DNA from: Desulfobacteraceae bacterium
GTDB taxonomy: Bacteria > Desulfobacterota > Desulfobacteria > Desulfobacterales > Desulfobacteraceae
Assembly (NCBI GenBank): GCA_003354055.1
Contig: PIVQ01000402.1
Coordinates: forward strand, 1-6,727
Length of the DNA: 6,727 nucleotides
Direction: 5' to 3'
The position numbers and the translations under genes were made by a program. The notes under the pieces were generated by a model. It made no database searches and was not told where the DNA came from. It saw only the letters and a list, made by a program, of their open reading frames with translations. This document shows, piece by piece, positions 1 through 6,727 of the stretch; positions within the stretch are counted from its first letter, which is position 1, and each line of letters starts with the position of its first letter.

Positions 1-411
1 GATATCATCAACGTGGCCGGACACAGACTGTCCACCGGTGCCATGGAAGAAGCCATTGCCGGTCACCCGGATGTGGCTGAATGCGCGGTCATGGGTGTTG
101 CAGACCAACTCAAGGGACAGATTCCTCTGGGTATGATGGTACTAAATGCCGGCGTGGACAGAGATCCTGATGAAGTGGTCAAGGAAGTGATCCAAAGAGT
201 AAGACAGCAAATAGGTCCTGTGGCAGCCTTTAAAACCGCCACCATTGTCAAACGTTTACCGAAAACAAGATCGGGGAAGATATTGAGAGGGACTATGCGG
301 TCCATTGCAGACAAAAAGGAGTACAAAGTACCAGCAACAATTGATGACTATAGCATTCTGGATGAGATCGAAGAGTCTTTAGGTAAGATCGGGTATGGAA
401 AAAACGCATGA
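1..411 (+). CDS. prpE: Propionyl/acetyl-CoA synthetase (PrpE/ACSS3 type), C-terminal part, 5' end outside window
   Basis: The frame is open from base 1, giving the last 136 residues of an AMP-forming acyl-CoA synthetase. Such enzymes are about 630 aa, so roughly the last fifth is present. The window opens inside the conserved DxINVAGHRLS motif at the start of the mobile C-terminal lid domain, followed by HPDVAECAVMGVAD and LKGQ. LPKTRSGKILR carries the lysine (residue 93 of the fragment, codon 277-279) that catalyses adenylation in this superfamily and is the usual site of regulatory acetylation. RLSTGAMEE in place of the HRLGT..E of typical acetyl-CoA synthetases favours the propionyl-CoA synthetase/ACSS3 branch, but substrate cannot be fixed from the tail. 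The reaction would be carboxylate + ATP + CoA to acyl-CoA + AMP + PPi in the cytoplasm. The downstream symporter, 129 nt away on the same strand, suggests coupled uptake and activation. The GTG at 13 is an internal valine codon, not the start. Confidence 0.9.
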   Translation, partial: DIINVAGHRLSTGAMEEAIAGHPDVAECAVMGVADQLKGQIPLGMMVLNAGVDRDPDEVVKEVIQRVRQQIGPVAAFKTATIVKRLPKTRSGKILRGTMRSIADKKEYKVPATIDDYSILDEIEESLGKIGYGKNA

Positions 412-540: not shown

Positions 541-2331
541 ATGGAATCGAATGTAATGTGGGTGTGGGGATTATTAAGTTGCTATATCGTCTATTGCTTC
601 TGGTGGGGTTTAAGAGGGTTTTTTACTGAAAAAACTGCCTCTGGGTACGGGATCGCTGGCCGCTCCATTCCCTTTATCGCATTTTTGATGGCAGCAACGG
701 CTGCTTCCTTTTCCGGGTGGACATTTGTAGGACATCCAGGTTTGATCTGGAAGGTCGGACTTGTATACGCATTTGCCTCGTTCTATGTCTTGACCATTCC
801 CATCACAGGCGCTTTCTTTGCAAAGAGAAACTGGCTCATGGGTAAACGGTACGGCTTTATCACTCCCGGTGATATGTTTGCATACTACTATAATAATGAA
901 CTGGTTCGCTGGCTGACTGTTCTGGCAGCGCTCCTTTATTCAATTTTTTATTCGGGTATTCAGCTGATTGCAGCCTCAAAACTCTTTTATTGGGTTGCCG
1001 GCGTACCCACGACCTATGGTCTTATTTTCATGGCCTTTATCGTATGGTTTTATGTGGTCACAGGTGGCCTCAAGGCAAGTACCTGGGTTGGTGTTCTCCA
1101 GTTCTGTCTTCTTGTCGGCGGTATTGCCCTGCTGGGCTTTTATGTTATTACATCCCCGATAATCGGCGGATGGTCCGGCATGTCAGCCTCTTTGGCGCAA
1201 CTTGATCCGAAATACATGAAAGTACCAGGGTTGATTAACTTTGGAATTGGAGGTGGCTGGACCGCGGTGATGATTTTGACCTATATGTTTGCTCTCATGG
1301 GCATTCAGTCATCGCCAGCATTTATTCTCTGGAACTTTGGTATTGCATCTCCAAAACCCCTTGCATGGCAGCAGGTTTTTATGTCAACATTTGTTGTCGG
1401 CATCTGTCTGTTCTTCTTTTCAGCCTTCCAGGGAATGGGTGCAAAGATACTCGAACTTTCCGGAGACATGATCATAGCCAACAACGGCGATGTTGTTCCT
1501 AAACTTATGACAAAATTCTTGCCGGGACCTGTCTTGGGTCTTGTATTTCTTGGCGCCATTGCAGCCATCCACTCCACAGCCGCTCCCTATATAGGAACCG
1601 GTGGTACTATCATCCAGAGAGATGTATGGTGGAGATATGTAAGAAAACAGCAGGGATCTCATGCAGAACAGATCTGGACCAACCGTATCATGGCGACTCT
1701 TTTGACTGTGGCAGCGGTTATCGTCAGTCTGACATCATCTGATGCCATTGTTATGATCGGTGGTTTCGCAACCACCTTTGGTACCATTATGTACCTTATG
1801 CTCGTTGGTGTTCACTGGGGTTTCAAATTCCCAAGCATTGGTGCAGCCTTAGGCCTTCTGGCCGGTATTGTTGTGAATATGCTGACCTATTTTGTCTGGA
1901 AATACCCACTTTCTATGCATACGGCTTTCTGGGGTATTTTTGCAGGGTTTGCTGTTGCCTACGGCTGCCGCGGACTTGGATTTAAAGATTCCGAGGAAAC
2001 CATTGAGCGCCAAAAAGAAGTCAGAACATGGCTTAACAGTATTGACGGGCCTTCAGAACAAGGTCAGATATGGCGGAATCGGATGAAGATTGTTATTCCT
2101 ATATGGTATGCCCTCGCCCTTGGACCTGGGGTCCTCCTTGGAAACACCGCCTTTAGTTTCTGCGGATTTCCCGCAATCTGGTCATGGCAGATTGTCTGGT
2201 GGATCATTGGTATCGTCGTGATGTGGGCCCTTTGCTTTAAAGGTGAAATGTCCACCACGTCCGAAGAACAGATCAGACGTGCGGATGTTGAGCTAATGGA
2301 TGTAACCAAAGAAGCAGATGACGCGGTTTAA
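541..2331 (+). CDS. Sodium:solute symporter (SSS/SLC5 family), probable short-chain carboxylate importer
   Basis: The 596-residue protein is strongly hydrophobic, with about 14 membrane helices by eye. Family hallmarks are the periplasmic-end helix with AASFSGWTFVGHPG (54-67), the signature YVVTGGLKASTWVGVLQ (171-187) and AAIHSTAAPY (341-350). In that last segment S345/T346 match the Ser/Thr pair that forms the Na2 sodium site in PutP and vSGLT, followed by the usual GT-IIQRDVW. Length is within the family range (about 480-600), with a cytoplasmic loop near 480-512 before the last two helices and a polar tail from about 568. It would use the sodium gradient to import a solute across the inner membrane. 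The upstream acyl-CoA synthetase and the regulator set downstream point to acetate, propionate or a similar acid, but no residue seen here proves the substrate. The start has a strong AGGAGG 9 nt upstream. A tiny membrane peptide follows after 50 nt. Confidence 0.93.
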   Translation: MESNVMWVWGLLSCYIVYCFWWGLRGFFTEKTASGYGIAGRSIPFIAFLMAATAASFSGWTFVGHPGLIWKVGLVYAFASFYVLTIPITGAFFAKRNWLMGKRYGFITPGDMFAYYYNNELVRWLTVLAALLYSIFYSGIQLIAASKLFYWVAGVPTTYGLIFMAFIVWFYVVTGGLKASTWVGVLQFCLLVGGIALLGFYVITSPIIGGWSGMSASLAQLDPKYMKVPGLINFGIGGGWTAVMILTYMFALMGIQSSPAFILWNFGIASPKPLAWQQVFMSTFVVGICLFFFSAFQGMGAKILELSGDMIIANNGDVVPKLMTKFLPGPVLGLVFLGAIAAIHSTAAPYIGTGGTIIQRDVWWRYVRKQQGSHAEQIWTNRIMATLLTVAAVIVSLTSSDAIVMIGGFATTFGTIMYLMLVGVHWGFKFPSIGAALGLLAGIVVNMLTYFVWKYPLSMHTAFWGIFAGFAVAYGCRGLGFKDSEETIERQKEVRTWLNSIDGPSEQGQIWRNRMKIVIPIWYALALGPGVLLGNTAFSFCGFPAIWSWQIVWWIIGIVVMWALCFKGEMSTTSEEQIRRADVELMDVTKEADDAV

Positions 2332-2547: not shown

Positions 2548-4596
2548 ATGACTCAAACCAATAGATTCTGGAAATTCGTTCTCATCAGCCTGGCCGGCAT
2601 TATCTTTATGGGGTTGTTATTTTTGGTCCATATCTGGTTCAACCTTTCTCCGGGCCAAAAAAATACCCTGATTCAGATCCACCAGGAAAATATATTTGCG
2701 CTTCTTGGCTTTGCCTTTGTCATTATCGGGGCGCTGTGGGTGGTTTTTGATATCACCTATAACCGGTATATCCGTCCCTTGAAACGGATGTCTGCTGAAG
2801 CCGGAATGATCTATGATTCAAACCCGTCTCACAGAATCCGTGTGAAAGGCAGCCGGGATATCAGACAAATGGCAGACATCATCAATGATTTTGCCGATAT
2901 GTTTGAAAATCTCAATAAAACCATTACCGAACAGATCCTGGCCGCTAGAAAAGATACCGAGAAAGAGAGAAACCTTCTGGCCGCCATTATGGGTGAACTG
3001 CCCCAGGGCATTATAGTCTGTAATAAAAACGGCAGGATTATTCTGTTCAACTCTTTGGCTAGGACCGTTTTTAGTACGGGTCCCAACTCAGAGTCTACGG
3101 AACTGTTTTTAGGTCTTGGCCGGTCTATTTTTCATCTCATCGACAAGGTATTAATCGCCCATGCCATGGATGAAATCATTGAGCAGATGAATACACCTAA
3201 AATTCCTGTGGGCTCTTTTTTTATCACCCCTATTGCCTCAGGCGCCCTTATCAGTGCAGAGGCCATCCCGGTCCTTGATAAGGGGAAAAATATTACAGGT
3301 TTTATTCTGGCGGTTCAGGATGTTTCTGAAAAAATAGAAAAATATCAGACCGTTGACAAAAAGTTAAAACAATTTAAAACCCTTATCTACAGCCCTGAAT
3401 CAAACCGGCCGGAAATCATACTGGATTCTTTTGATCAAATGGCAGGGGTTATAAAGGAAACCGTCTTTTCAAGTCTGCCGTTAACCACACTGCCTTTAGA
3501 TTCATTTTTACCCATGATTCAAAAAAAGACCGGGTCAATAAACAATGTCCGGGTCAATATATTTAACCCCTGCCCAGGCAGCCGAATTCTTGCCGACACC
3601 TATTCAATGACACAGGTATTTCTATTCATTTTTACAAAACTATCCAAATTCACTCAGGTGAATGAATTTGATCTTTGCATATCAAAAAATGAGAAAACAA
3701 TAGGATTTGAAATTACCTGGAACGGTCCATTCTGTACAGCAGATCAGGTCAATTCAATGATCCGATTAAAGCTTGCCGGGCTACCCAGTCTCGGATATGT
3801 TCTCAAGTTCAATAATGCCAGGCTTATTCCCCTATCAATAGACAAAAACAGATGCACAGGAATCCATATCGCGACCCAGGCAGGTTCCCTGCCCAAAGGT
3901 ATTGTAAAAACAAGTGCTCCTGTCATTTCCGACTCCCGACCGGAGTTCTATGATTTCAATTTGTTCAATCTCAAAGACCCATCTGAAAATATTTTGGATA
4001 CGCCGCTCAATAAAATAACCTATACGGTACTTGATACGGAAACCACCGGCCTTAATCCTGATGGGGGGGATGAAATCATATCCATCGGTGCCGTAAGAAT
4101 TGTAAATAACCGGGTGGTGTACCAGGACTATTTTGAAGAACTCATCAACCCCGGACGGGATATACCCTTGGAATCCTATAAAATCCACGGCATCAACTAT
4201 GAAATGGTGGAAGAAAAGGATCCTATTGAAATTATCCTGCCGAAATTCAAAACGTTTACGGCCAATACTGTGCTTTTAGGCCACAACCTTGCCTTTGATA
4301 TGAAAATGCTGAAAGTCAAAGAGGCATCGACCCAAATTCGGTTTGAAAATCCTGTATTGGATACCCTGCTTTTATCAGCAGTACTCCACCCGGTCCATCA
4401 GCAGCATGATATGGAAAATATTGCCCGCAGACTTGGGGTGAATATTCTTGGAAGACACACCGCCTTAGGCGATGCCATAGCCACTGCTGAAATTTTTTTA
4501 AAACTTGTGCCCATATTGAACAGTAACGGAATACTCACCTTAAAAGATGCTGTTAAAGCATCAAAGAAAACCTATTATGCCAGATTAAAATATTGA
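2548..4596 (+). CDS. Membrane-anchored HAMP-PAS-pseudokinase fused to a DnaQ-like DEDDh 3'-5' exonuclease
   Basis: 682 residues. Two membrane helices (about 10-31 and 49-69) flank a loop of only some 18 residues, too small for a classical periplasmic sensor domain. A HAMP-like linker (about 72-128, with RPLKRM and DIRQMADIINDFADMF) and a PAS-like domain (about 143-260, from LPQGIIVCNKNGRIILFN to GFILAVQDVSEK) follow. Residues 265-450 resemble a histidine-kinase core in order: ADTYSMTQVFLFIFTKLSKF where the N box should be, EITWNGP for a G1-like strand, and GLPSLGYVLKFNNARLIPL for the G2 helix. The phosphoacceptor His, N-box Asn pattern and glycine boxes appear lost. From about 490 is a complete DEDDh nuclease: D496/E498 in DTETTG, D584 in HNLAFD, H637 and D642 in RHTALGDA. 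It is likely an active cytoplasmic nuclease under membrane control; its substrate is unknown. An in-frame TAG at 2542-2544 limits the start to ATG 2548, which lacks a clear Shine-Dalgarno. Confidence 0.88.
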   Translation: MTQTNRFWKFVLISLAGIIFMGLLFLVHIWFNLSPGQKNTLIQIHQENIFALLGFAFVIIGALWVVFDITYNRYIRPLKRMSAEAGMIYDSNPSHRIRVKGSRDIRQMADIINDFADMFENLNKTITEQILAARKDTEKERNLLAAIMGELPQGIIVCNKNGRIILFNSLARTVFSTGPNSESTELFLGLGRSIFHLIDKVLIAHAMDEIIEQMNTPKIPVGSFFITPIASGALISAEAIPVLDKGKNITGFILAVQDVSEKIEKYQTVDKKLKQFKTLIYSPESNRPEIILDSFDQMAGVIKETVFSSLPLTTLPLDSFLPMIQKKTGSINNVRVNIFNPCPGSRILADTYSMTQVFLFIFTKLSKFTQVNEFDLCISKNEKTIGFEITWNGPFCTADQVNSMIRLKLAGLPSLGYVLKFNNARLIPLSIDKNRCTGIHIATQAGSLPKGIVKTSAPVISDSRPEFYDFNLFNLKDPSENILDTPLNKITYTVLDTETTGLNPDGGDEIISIGAVRIVNNRVVYQDYFEELINPGRDIPLESYKIHGINYEMVEEKDPIEIILPKFKTFTANTVLLGHNLAFDMKMLKVKEASTQIRFENPVLDTLLLSAVLHPVHQQHDMENIARRLGVNILGRHTALGDAIATAEIFLKLVPILNSNGILTLKDAVKASKKTYYARLKY

Positions 4597-4681: not shown

Positions 4682-5302
4682 ATGAAAAGACCGTTGCGTT
4701 CACTCACTGTATTCTGCGCTATATTTTTTGGCATTATTCTTTTTTGTGTTGTTCTTGGCGGATATACCAACCTTTTGCGGGCACAAAACCGGATTGGTGA
4801 GAACAAAGAATTGGTGATCACCCAATGCCAGAAACGGATAGATCTTCTCCCTGAACTTATTACAATAGCCGGTAAAATCCAATCCTCAGAGAACGGCAAT
4901 ACGTCTAAAATTTCTCAACTCAAGGAAACAGCAAAACACGCAACAACAATTCTGTCCCAATTCAATTCAACAACACCCAGTGAAAAACAGGTTTTGGCCT
5001 TTGAACAATCCCAGGTCAGTTTGGGTCAGACAATTTCGTTATTAATCACTGATCTTAAAAATATTGATGCAGCCAATACTAACGTGCTTGCCTTGGAAAA
5101 AGACTTCCAGCAACTGGGACTCTCGGTGTGGGTCACAAGTAACCGATATAACAAGGAAGCCAAGTATTTCAATGACAAAAAAGACATGTTCCCAGGATCT
5201 CTTTCTGCAAAAATATTCGGACTCGGCAAAACTCGTTTTTTTGAGATTACGGCCAGCCTGTTGAAGCCGGAAACCCTAGGAGCTGGTAAAGGTGCCTCTT
5301 GA
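4682..5302 (+). CDS. LemA family protein, divergent
   Basis: 206 residues with one N-terminal membrane helix (about 8-27) and no lipobox at C22, so a signal anchor is likely and the helical body would face the periplasm. LemA hallmarks are present in order: YTNLLRAQNRIGEN (28-41) for the usual YN.LV..RN.V.EA, QCQKRIDLLPELI (48-60) for the QL.RR.DLIPNLV core, then long helices, RYN (155-157) and MFPGSLSAKIFGL (169-181) near the end. Length is typical for the family (about 185-210). The molecular role of LemA proteins is not established; they are helical-bundle membrane proteins. There is no TPM-domain or HtpX gene beside it, the common partners. Instead it overlaps by 11 nt the gene for a cNMP/CBS/DUF294 protein, so the two are probably made together and may work together. 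GGGAGG lies 8 nt before the ATG. Confidence 0.87.
   Translation: MKRPLRSLTVFCAIFFGIILFCVVLGGYTNLLRAQNRIGENKELVITQCQKRIDLLPELITIAGKIQSSENGNTSKISQLKETAKHATTILSQFNSTTPSEKQVLAFEQSQVSLGQTISLLITDLKNIDAANTNVLALEKDFQQLGLSVWVTSNRYNKEAKYFNDKKDMFPGSLSAKIFGLGKTRFFEITASLLKPETLGAGKGAS
5278..5282 (+). promoter_or_regulatory. Ribosome binding site deciding the GTG start of the DUF294 gene
   Basis: AGGAG, inside the end of the LemA gene, lies 9 nt before GTG 5292. The first ATG of the downstream frame (5400) has only AT-rich sequence before it, and starting there would remove conserved residues of the cNMP fold. Confidence 0.7.
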
Positions 5303-6727
5303 GCCAATAAGAAACAGGCCTGCTACGGCTCCTTTTTCAAGCTTGTCCAAGCCTGATGAGCAGGCCCTTTACAACGAATTTTCATATAAAAAATATAACA
5401 TGGATACCGTCCTTTTTGATCAGGAAATCTCCAGGGCGGAAAAATTTCTTGTTCTTTCAAAGGGATCCTGCACCTATTATTTTGAGCAGGATAATGCAAA
5501 ACTTTTAAAAGGAAAACTTTTGCCGGGGGATACCTTTGGCAGCCTTTCCATCTTGTTTAATGATCAAATGGCGATACACACGTTAAAAACCCTTGAAGAA
5601 ACGGTTTTTTTAAGCATTGACGCCTCTTTCTTTTTAAATCTTTGCAAAAAAAATCGCAGGTTCCAGGAAGTTTTTACCAATGAATTCGGCAGATGCATGC
5701 TGAATAAAATATTTGCGTCTATTATTGCCAGACAGGTTTTAAACAAAACCTTGAATCTGCCCTTTTTCAATCAACCTATATCCGCCATTTTCAGACCCAA
5801 TATTGCGACATGTAATAATGCAACGCCTATCCGGGATGCGGCCTCAAAGATGAGCCAAAACAATGCCAGTGCGATCCTAGTAAAATCCGACCGCAACGAT
5901 ATCAAAGGTATTATGACAGACGCAGACCTGAAAGAAAAAGTTCTGGTCAGGGATATATCCCCCGCCATGCCTGTGTCCGACATCATGTCCCGGCCCATCA
6001 TTTCAATTGGCTCCGATTCCATGGTATTTGAGGCCTTTTTAACCATGATTGAAAAGGATACGCGGCATCTAGCCGTTACTGGAAAATCCGGTGATATTTC
6101 CGGAATTTTAACTCAAAAAGACCTGATCTGCGCCCAGACCCAGTCCACCTTTCTTTTGATCAAATCCATAAAATCAGCTAAGGATATGCCTGATCTTGAA
6201 AATATCCATTCAAGACTTGAAAATATGCTGCTGGACCCCATCAGGAACGGTGCCAGTCCGGAATATATTACCCGGCTGATCACCACGTTTTCAGATGCTA
6301 TCATTGAAAAAATCATAGACTTTTCCCTTGATAAAGCAGGCCCTGCCCCCTGTAAATTTGTCTTTTTAACCATGGGATCCGAAGGCCGTGAAGAACAGAC
6401 GCTTATTTCCGACCAGGACAATGCCATTGTCTTTGAAGACATTGAAGACCCACAAAAGGCCAAAGCTGCAAAATCATATTTTGACAATCTGTCCAAACTC
6501 ATCTGCACCCGTCTTAACATGGCAGGCTATCGATTTTGCGACGGAGATAATATGGCCCAGAATACAAAATGGTGCCAGCCTTTGTCCGTGTGGAAGGGCT
6601 ATTTTAACAAGTGGATCAGAACGGCAAAACCCGAGGATCTGTTATACTCAAGCATATTTTTTGATTTCAGGGGAACCTTTGGAGAAATGGCACTGGCCCG
6701 GGATCTCAAAACCTATCTTCTTAAATC
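5292..6727 (+). CDS. cNMP-binding-fold / two CBS / DUF294 nucleotidyltransferase protein, 3' end outside window
   Basis: The frame is open from 5280 (TAG at 5277-5279) to the window end, giving 478 codons from GTG 5292; relatives are about 610-640 aa, so roughly a quarter is missing. Residues about 13-130 form a cyclic-nucleotide-binding fold (PFSSL near the start, LSKGSCTYYF, LLPGDTFGS). CBS repeats lie at about 163-216 (ending GIMTDADL) and 226-281 (IMSRPIISI to GILTQKDL). A helical linker leads to the DUF294 nucleotidyltransferase: GSEGREEQT (362-370) with D374 and D376 as the metal-binding pair, as in the GlnD-like superfamily. The DUF294 C-terminal part begins with MAQNTKWCQPLSVW and IFFDFRGTFG. 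This suggests a cytoplasmic protein that senses adenine nucleotides through CBS and transfers a nucleotide to an unknown target. Odd: the phosphate-binding cassette reads FGSLSILFNDQMAIHT, without the Glu and Arg that hold cAMP. The GTG start overlaps the LemA gene by 11 nt. Confidence 0.9.
   Translation, partial: MPLEPIRNRPATAPFSSLSKPDEQALYNEFSYKKYNMDTVLFDQEISRAEKFLVLSKGSCTYYFEQDNAKLLKGKLLPGDTFGSLSILFNDQMAIHTLKTLEETVFLSIDASFFLNLCKKNRRFQEVFTNEFGRCMLNKIFASIIARQVLNKTLNLPFFNQPISAIFRPNIATCNNATPIRDAASKMSQNNASAILVKSDRNDIKGIMTDADLKEKVLVRDISPAMPVSDIMSRPIISIGSDSMVFEAFLTMIEKDTRHLAVTGKSGDISGILTQKDLICAQTQSTFLLIKSIKSAKDMPDLENIHSRLENMLLDPIRNGASPEYITRLITTFSDAIIEKIIDFSLDKAGPAPCKFVFLTMGSEGREEQTLISDQDNAIVFEDIEDPQKAKAAKSYFDNLSKLICTRLNMAGYRFCDGDNMAQNTKWCQPLSVWKGYFNKWIRTAKPEDLLYSSIFFDFRGTFGEMALARDLKTYLLK

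Follow-up and report, generated by a model that had tools for sequence, protein, structure and literature searches.

Can a membrane receptor built like a sensor histidine kinase have exchanged phosphotransfer for hydrolysis? The question is raised by a gene of a Desulfobacteraceae bacterium, located at positions 2548..4596 on the forward strand of a 6,727-nucleotide stretch of contig PIVQ01000402.1 (hereafter, the window). Its open reading frame encodes a 682-residue protein, with a family of homologues, in which a pseudo-histidine-kinase is joined to a DEDDh-type 3'-5' exonuclease. We propose, at a probability of roughly 0.55, that this protein is a signal-gated 3'-5' exonuclease or phosphodiesterase assembled on a histidine-kinase chassis and acting on an acetate-type uptake cluster.

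Kinase descent, loss of kinase residues and retention of nuclease residues

The central region of the protein was compared, at the profile level, with 17 CrbS-like sensor-kinase sequences from the fetched loci, one kinase being counted twice. The family set comprised 116 sequences: 34 from the window's own group, 42 obtained with a Cupriavidus query and 40 with a Desulfobacterota query. With P0251 as the first sequence, the profile of residues 256-452 aligned over its full length with the CrbS-like kinases (probability 99.0%, E 6.4e-18), and with the window sequence first the same comparison returned 96.6% and an E-value of 6.1e-10. Profile and fold comparison together demonstrate that residues 256-452 are kinase-derived and homologous to the DHp-CA core. 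An unrelated fold for residues 260-460, an outcome that the initial annotation had contemplated, is ruled out by the same two comparisons, which return a kinase-type (HATPase_c) fold, and the sensor-kinase architecture that it had described (two helices, HAMP-like, PAS-like and degenerate DHp/ATPase regions) was borne out by hydropathy, Pfam, profile and fold comparison.

The kinase signature residues, which had been thought lost from the window protein, were read along the profile alignment with the CrbS-like kinases for each of the histidine-kinase boxes (H, N, G1 and G2), and their loss extends across the family. The H-box His is retained in only six of the 116 relatives, all from the Cupriavidus-query set (0/34, 6/42 and 0/40 in the order given above), and is replaced by Thr in the window. 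The G1-box Asp has become Trp in 115 of 116 sequences, and the GxGxG pattern of G2 is gone, with isolated Gly persisting in the window's group. An active histidine kinase is ruled out by the residues at these four boxes. At the level of Pfam, the window protein yields no match to the HATPase_c profile, and HisKA matches fall below the cut-off of 26.9 bits in two relatives (P0142, 25.1 bits; P0204, 21.6 bits). Among 360 listed homologues (120 per query), whose precomputed Pfam column was read by eye, RNase_T was present in all 360, HisKA in one (P0142) and HATPase_c in none.

The C-terminal domain (residues 490-655; 4015..4512, forward strand) presents an RNase-H-like exonuclease fold. Its catalytic residues D496, E498, D584, H637 and D642, reported earlier as intact, are identical in 116/116 sequences. 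Among the large domains of the family DEDDh shows the strongest conservation, with 56 of 166 columns at least 95% conserved, against 19/120 in the PAS domain, 6/13 in the linker (463-475), 0/46 in the DHp remnant and 3/139 in the CA region. A second fold search, silent on the other domains because exonucleases filled its match list, returned the PolC exonuclease, DinG, epsilon and ExoX, enzymes whose substrates are nucleic-acid 3' ends, as the closest solved structures. PolC, DinG and epsilon share fold and catalytic residues with the window nuclease, and have replication or repair roles and no sensor part. Screening with PADLOC matched the nuclease to a general DEDDh model (5.5e-38) and to two PDC-S48 models, both over the DEDDh domain. 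These results fit a protein whose predicted output is hydrolysis instead of phosphotransfer.

The remaining segments, all on the forward strand, complete the receptor. Two transmembrane helices with a short outer loop (2563..2763) correspond to hydrophobic segments at residues 6-36 and 46-72 by hydropathy and appear as helices in the structure model. They are followed by a HAMP-like segment (residues 75-118; 2770..2901) recognized by a sub-threshold Pfam HAMP match (E 0.0096), a PAS domain (143-262; 2974..3333), a remnant of the DHp helices (263-308; 3334..3471) carrying the Thr at the phospho-acceptor position (column 278), and the degenerate CA (HATPase_c-type) fold (309-447; 3472..3888), in which W391 occupies the position of the G1-box Asp. 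Within the PAS domain, G189-L190-G191-R192 (3112-3123) and H205 (3160-3162) are invariant in 116/116 rows, and C158 is conserved in 115/116; H205, located in helix 200-214 of the model, might be a cofactor or metal ligand. Directly N-terminal of the nuclease, conservation delineates the linker motif SRPEFYDFNLF (463-473; 3934..3966), which ranks with the best-conserved stretches of the family and may lock or position the nuclease. In some alphaproteobacterial relatives it has shrunk to a remnant of YDF or FDF type.

The DUF294 partner and the uptake-gene neighbourhood

All identified genes of the window lie on the forward strand. The fused gene is preceded by the C-terminal part of an acetate/propionate--CoA ligase gene (acs; 1..411), recognized by AMP-binding_C and by a TIGR02188 match (E 1.9e-33) that is partial and under that model's whole-protein cut-off, and by a gene for a 596-residue symporter (541..2331), which the initial annotation had noted beside it and which belongs to the SSS sodium/solute family (Pfam SSF, E 1.3e-32). 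Downstream are a gene for a LemA-family protein of 206 residues (4682..5302; Pfam LemA, E 3.2e-14) and one, running off the window, for a protein with cNMP-binding, two CBS and DUF294 nucleotidyltransferase domains (5292..6725; Pfam cNMP_binding, CBS and DUF294), in which the nucleotidyltransferase motif GSEGREEQTLISDQD was found. The gene order is identical in an uncultured Desulfobacteraceae bacterium (L001), and the top homologue of the fused protein among the matches listed is a Desulfobacterales metagenome protein (P0001) with 83% identity.

The company of DUF294 and transport genes recurs across the family. In 33 long loci (32 contain the gene, one contains fragments of it), DUF294 was matched in 23 and an SSS symporter (E < 1e-8) in 25, and over 150 loci of varied flank DUF294 was found within 2 kb of the fused gene in 73. 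Across 116 genomes of the order, a strong DUF294 match anywhere in the genome was present in 41/41 carriers of the full-length gene versus 23/75 others (Fisher p 5e-15, not corrected for kinship), the 75 including the fragment-only genomes G004, G039, G055, G076 and G080, and weak matches in open reading frames of GlnD size being uncounted. A nucleotidyltransferase domain was detected in 77 of 149 loci searched, and all 77, like the window, present the motif GSxGR.EQ...DQD.

CrbS-like kinases are also encoded near many of these genes (15 of the 41 loci searched, one of them the query's own). In Cupriavidus, the operon runs from a CrbS-like kinase through a single-domain regulator and the fused protein to DUF294 and acs; this kinase has HisKA and HATPase_c domains and an SSS-like N-terminus, the latter recognized by 57% identity to the N-terminus of a Paracoccus kinase whose own SSF match is sub-threshold. 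In Paracoccus, a DUF294-type gene, a CrbS-like kinase gene and a regulator gene precede the fused gene, and a second cluster encodes acs, DUF4212, a symporter, DUF294, a hypothetical protein, a regulator and a 3'-5' exonuclease. The anti-phage models of PADLOC returned no match for the DUF294 protein of the window or for one from Paracoccus, and its PD-T4-6 model matched the Paracoccus regulator weakly.

In the window's lineage fewer than 230 bases separate a LemA-family gene from the fused gene, and 19 fetched loci share this feature (among them L001, L107-L109, L111-L113, L119-L122, L163-L168, L174 and L175). A regulator neighbour was found in 0/19 of these loci. In several other Desulfobacterota a small separate cNMP-binding gene stands downstream in place of LemA.

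A response-regulator gene usually accompanies recognizable DHp helices

Of 145 judgeable loci, 81 carry, next to the fused gene and on its strand, a gene for a CheY-like response regulator; five of the 150 loci (L096, L097, L169, L170 and L173) were left out, with no regulator found and less than 600 bases upstream. The 81 regulators carry the acceptor Asp in 75 cases (Glu in the other six) and the Lys in 80. Those of L038 and L056 look non-phosphorylatable, because Glu stands in place of the phospho-acceptor and the acidic pair contains His.

In the counts, the regulator goes with the state of the DHp helices, which were scored with a profile trained on 82 homologues from two groups other than the window's; some scored loci may encode those same proteins. 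Of 92 loci with a recognizable DHp (at least 10 bits), 77 have a regulator no more than 500 bases away, versus four of the 53 loci without. With DHp-region length as the criterion (threshold, 78 residues), the figures are 80/108 for longer and 1/37 for shorter regions. Length alone discriminates poorly in the window's group, some members of which have a region of about 80 residues without a match to the DHp profile. The window protein is of the eroded kind, with 53 residues between PAS and CA versus about 81 in relatives with a recognizable DHp.

On a tree inferred from PAS and DEDDh columns, DHp erosion changes seven times by profile and ten times by length, and the regulator changes 13 times. 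Supported branches of the 150-locus set provide three (profile) or six (length) independent pairs, with averages of 1.2 and 2.3 concordant and of 0.3 and 0.0 discordant changes, respectively. An earlier set of 70 loci provided four pairs, 3.2 of them concordant and none discordant (p 0.125 to 1). The association between regulator and DHp is strong in counts and is not shown to be independent of descent.

Distribution of the family and shorter members

Three homologue searches at E <= 1e-3 returned 951, 1198 and 326 proteins, counts that may include other exonucleases; scoring was limited to the candidates with the most words in common. To judge by names and loci, the fused form occurs in Desulfobacterota, in Burkholderiales (Cupriavidus, Noviherbaspirillum, Janthinobacterium and others) and in Paracoccus. 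Genomes drawn from the order of L001 gave a match at E <= 1e-90 in 156 of 389 cases, and genomes drawn from its phylum gave a match at E <= 1e-40 in 46 of 395, where some matches cover just the nuclease part. Among the positive genomes of the order, 44 of the 156 were already in the set, and 80 of the 112 others were added, selected for full-length matches and contig room.

Shorter members retain fewer parts. A 479-residue Ruegeria protein (L064) and two from Desulfobacterota (L089 and L090) combine membrane helices with DEDDh and do not have the DHp/CA region; a PAS-like stretch between helices and nuclease was read by eye, with no Pfam PAS match in Ruegeria. Stand-alone exonuclease genes adjoin DUF294 in Hymenobacter and Vibrio records and in the Desulfobacterota loci L093-L095, the latter chosen for this proximity as examples, not as a sample, and excluded from the regulator and DHp counts. 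In L058 (genome G055) the fused gene is reduced to fragments beside acs and a regulator gene, is probably a decayed copy, and was excluded for its fragmented state.

Two further groups differ in their neighbours. Eight loci from Desulfobacterota (L068-L075) encode a full-length protein with a recognizable DHp, and in the roughly 5 kb fetched around them (less on one side of L070) there was no match to DUF294, symporter, acs or an adjacent regulator; a kinase match lies 1.3-1.4 kb off in three of them, and a longer regulator 2.4 kb off in two. The divergent group L076-L088 has an adjacent regulator at 11/13 loci and a kinase within 330 bases at 12/13, a larger N-terminal region in some proteins, and no SSS symporter match within the fetched stretches.

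Comparison with known systems

The CrbS/MxtR kinases of the SLC5-STAC type share the acetate context with this family, and relatives of theirs are encoded near many of its genes; they differ from the window protein in having HisKA and HATPase_c domains, a symporter-like input and no nuclease. GlnD carries a nucleotidyltransferase and an HD hydrolase (a phosphodiesterase) in one polypeptide directed at PII. By analogy, it would resemble the proposed pair in coupling a nucleotidyltransferase to a phosphodiesterase, the latter being of HD and not of DEDDh type.

The stand-alone exonuclease gene with a CBS-domain partner has already been tied to ActP in Pseudomonas. In the available parts of the published accounts, P. 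putida PP_0353 and PP_0354, an RNase_T exonuclease and a CBS-domain protein, are targets of MxtR/ErdR and form an operon tied to ActP and to acetate and pyruvate metabolism (PMC9927547, PMC8402216, PMC5715377). We assume here that CBS-domain proteins of the PP_0354 type are DUF294-type partners. In the same excerpts the control described is transcriptional, via MxtR/ErdR, and PP_0353 is presented by its RNase_T match with no mention of a sensor or kinase-derived part, unlike the window protein. The accessible text of PMC5715377 cites a prediction that the cAMP/CBS/nucleotidyltransferase-type protein regulates by nucleotidylation.

The closest precedent for the kinase-derived half is DivL of Caulobacter, described in the consulted sections of PMC4211667 as a kinase-dead DHp-CA protein that reads the phosphorylated CheY-like regulator DivK~P, with PAS domains tuning the reading, and as frequently devoid of its DHp-CA in lineages without the regulator. 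DivL resembles the present family in using a kinase fold as input for a CheY-like regulator and in its PAS domains (PMC4211667). It differs in keeping the H, N, G1 and G2 boxes except for the phospho-acceptor, in having no nuclease and in acting on the CckA pathway. Among the matches listed in the open-access literature (titles and starts of abstracts), there was no report of a fused PAS/pseudo-kinase and DEDDh receptor and no description of the regulator neighbour or of a link between regulator and DHp. Both pseudo-kinase receptors and DEDDh nucleases have precedents; a signalling output that unites them is undescribed as far as could be seen among those matches.

A proposed output swap and its alternatives

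We propose that the output of this receptor was swapped: the ATPase fold would survive for structure or docking, and catalysis would fall to the C-terminal DEDDh 3'-5' exonuclease, gated in a putative dimer by signals from the transmembrane/HAMP part and the PAS domain. In many relatives, a CheY-like regulator may dock on the DHp-like helices and gate the nuclease, as DivK~P does on DivL; this two-input proposal for regulator-bearing members is made because the pattern resembles DivL, with the exonuclease as the presumed output. The window's lineage, with an eroded DHp and no adjacent regulator gene, would retain only the transmembrane/HAMP/PAS input. The target would belong to the acetate-type uptake cluster (acs, SSS symporter and DUF294 nucleotidyltransferase). 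Because a nucleotidyltransferase with cNMP and CBS parts of its own steadily accompanies the nuclease, the candidate substrate that we prefer is a product of the DUF294 enzyme, either a nucleotidyl mark or an oligonucleotide, which DUF294 would write and DEDDh possibly erase, with selective RNA decay as second choice. A tentative extension would place these parts in one chain, from a CrbS-like kinase through a CheY-like regulator and a kinase-dead receptor to a DEDDh domain that erases the DUF294-written mark or oligonucleotide and so sets acetate-type uptake, the regulator arm having been dropped in the window's lineage.

Several observations weigh against this proposal. The HAMP call is weak, and the structure model has a predicted TM-score (pTM) of 0.44, so the arrangement of the domains is not predicted by it. 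DUF294 was not found in 10/33 long loci, and no regulator gene lies within the window's 6.7 kb. Fifteen loci have a recognizable DHp and no regulator within 500 bases, and four have a regulator despite a low DHp score, the four being two alphaproteobacterial records and two loci of a divergent Desulfobacterota group, all outside the groups that trained the profile. When kinship is controlled, co-loss of regulator and DHp is not significant by sign test at 70 or at 150 loci, because independent events are too few. Deletion of PP_0353 and PP_0354 left growth on acetate unaffected in the available account (PMC9927547), and in P. fluorescens, mutation of the cAMP/CBS/nucleotidyltransferase protein is described in the consulted part of PMC5715377 as giving no phenotype. 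Finally, a conserved phospho-acceptor His and N box, which would have refuted the reading of the initial annotation, did not emerge from the alignment, the window having Lys at the N-box position, though the N-box Asn persists in 24/116 relatives (20/34, 0/42 and 4/40) and the first G1 Gly in 94/116 (16/34, 38/42 and 40/40), so residual nucleotide binding is possible.

These last residues, 78/82 for the Gly outside the window's group, and the retained CA fold are what would speak for a CA region that still binds ATP or another nucleotide and acts as an energy sensor gating the nuclease. We consider this unlikely, since the adenine-binding Asp is Trp in 115/116 sequences, the G2 pattern is gone and the CA region is wholly absent from some relatives. 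With one half of the protein already a pseudo-enzyme and nuclease activity only predicted, the DEDDh domain might also be a non-catalytic binding module through which the protein engages partners such as the symporter or the regulator; the five catalytic residues invariant in 116/116 sequences of the most conserved large domain make this still less probable.

A rival that keeps the nuclease active is that it selectively degrades mRNAs for carbon metabolism or transporters near the membrane, with DUF294 as a separate regulator or as a tagger of RNA 3' ends. The 3'-end enzymes found as nearest folds are in keeping with it, as is the speculation of Henriquez et al., in the accessible part of their paper, that PP_0353 acts in mRNA decay (PMC9927547), but alone it leaves the regular company of DUF294 and the membrane anchor at a transport cluster unexplained, and we regard it as doubtful. 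Many relatives carry the source name 'DNA polymerase III subunit epsilon', which might suggest an ordinary proofreading or repair exonuclease fused to a sensor by chance; the poor fit to replication or repair remarked on in the initial annotation is, however, confirmed by the membrane-sensor architecture and by the neighbours identified (acs, symporter, DUF294 and two-component genes), on which such a role is rejected and the chance fusion regarded as highly improbable.

Implications

If the proposed output swap is correct, these receptors may answer a nutrient signal by cleaving nucleic acids or nucleotides and not by phosphorylation. Histidine-kinase-type receptors normally signal by phosphotransfer, and a widespread family of dead kinases joined to exonucleases would represent a different kind of signal conversion. 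It may also provide, beside DivL, a further example of a kinase fold retained to receive response regulators. A concrete, testable role would thereby be given to the DUF294/DEDDh pair found with acetate- and pyruvate-type uptake genes, on which the papers, in their available parts, offer growth and expression data and no biochemistry.
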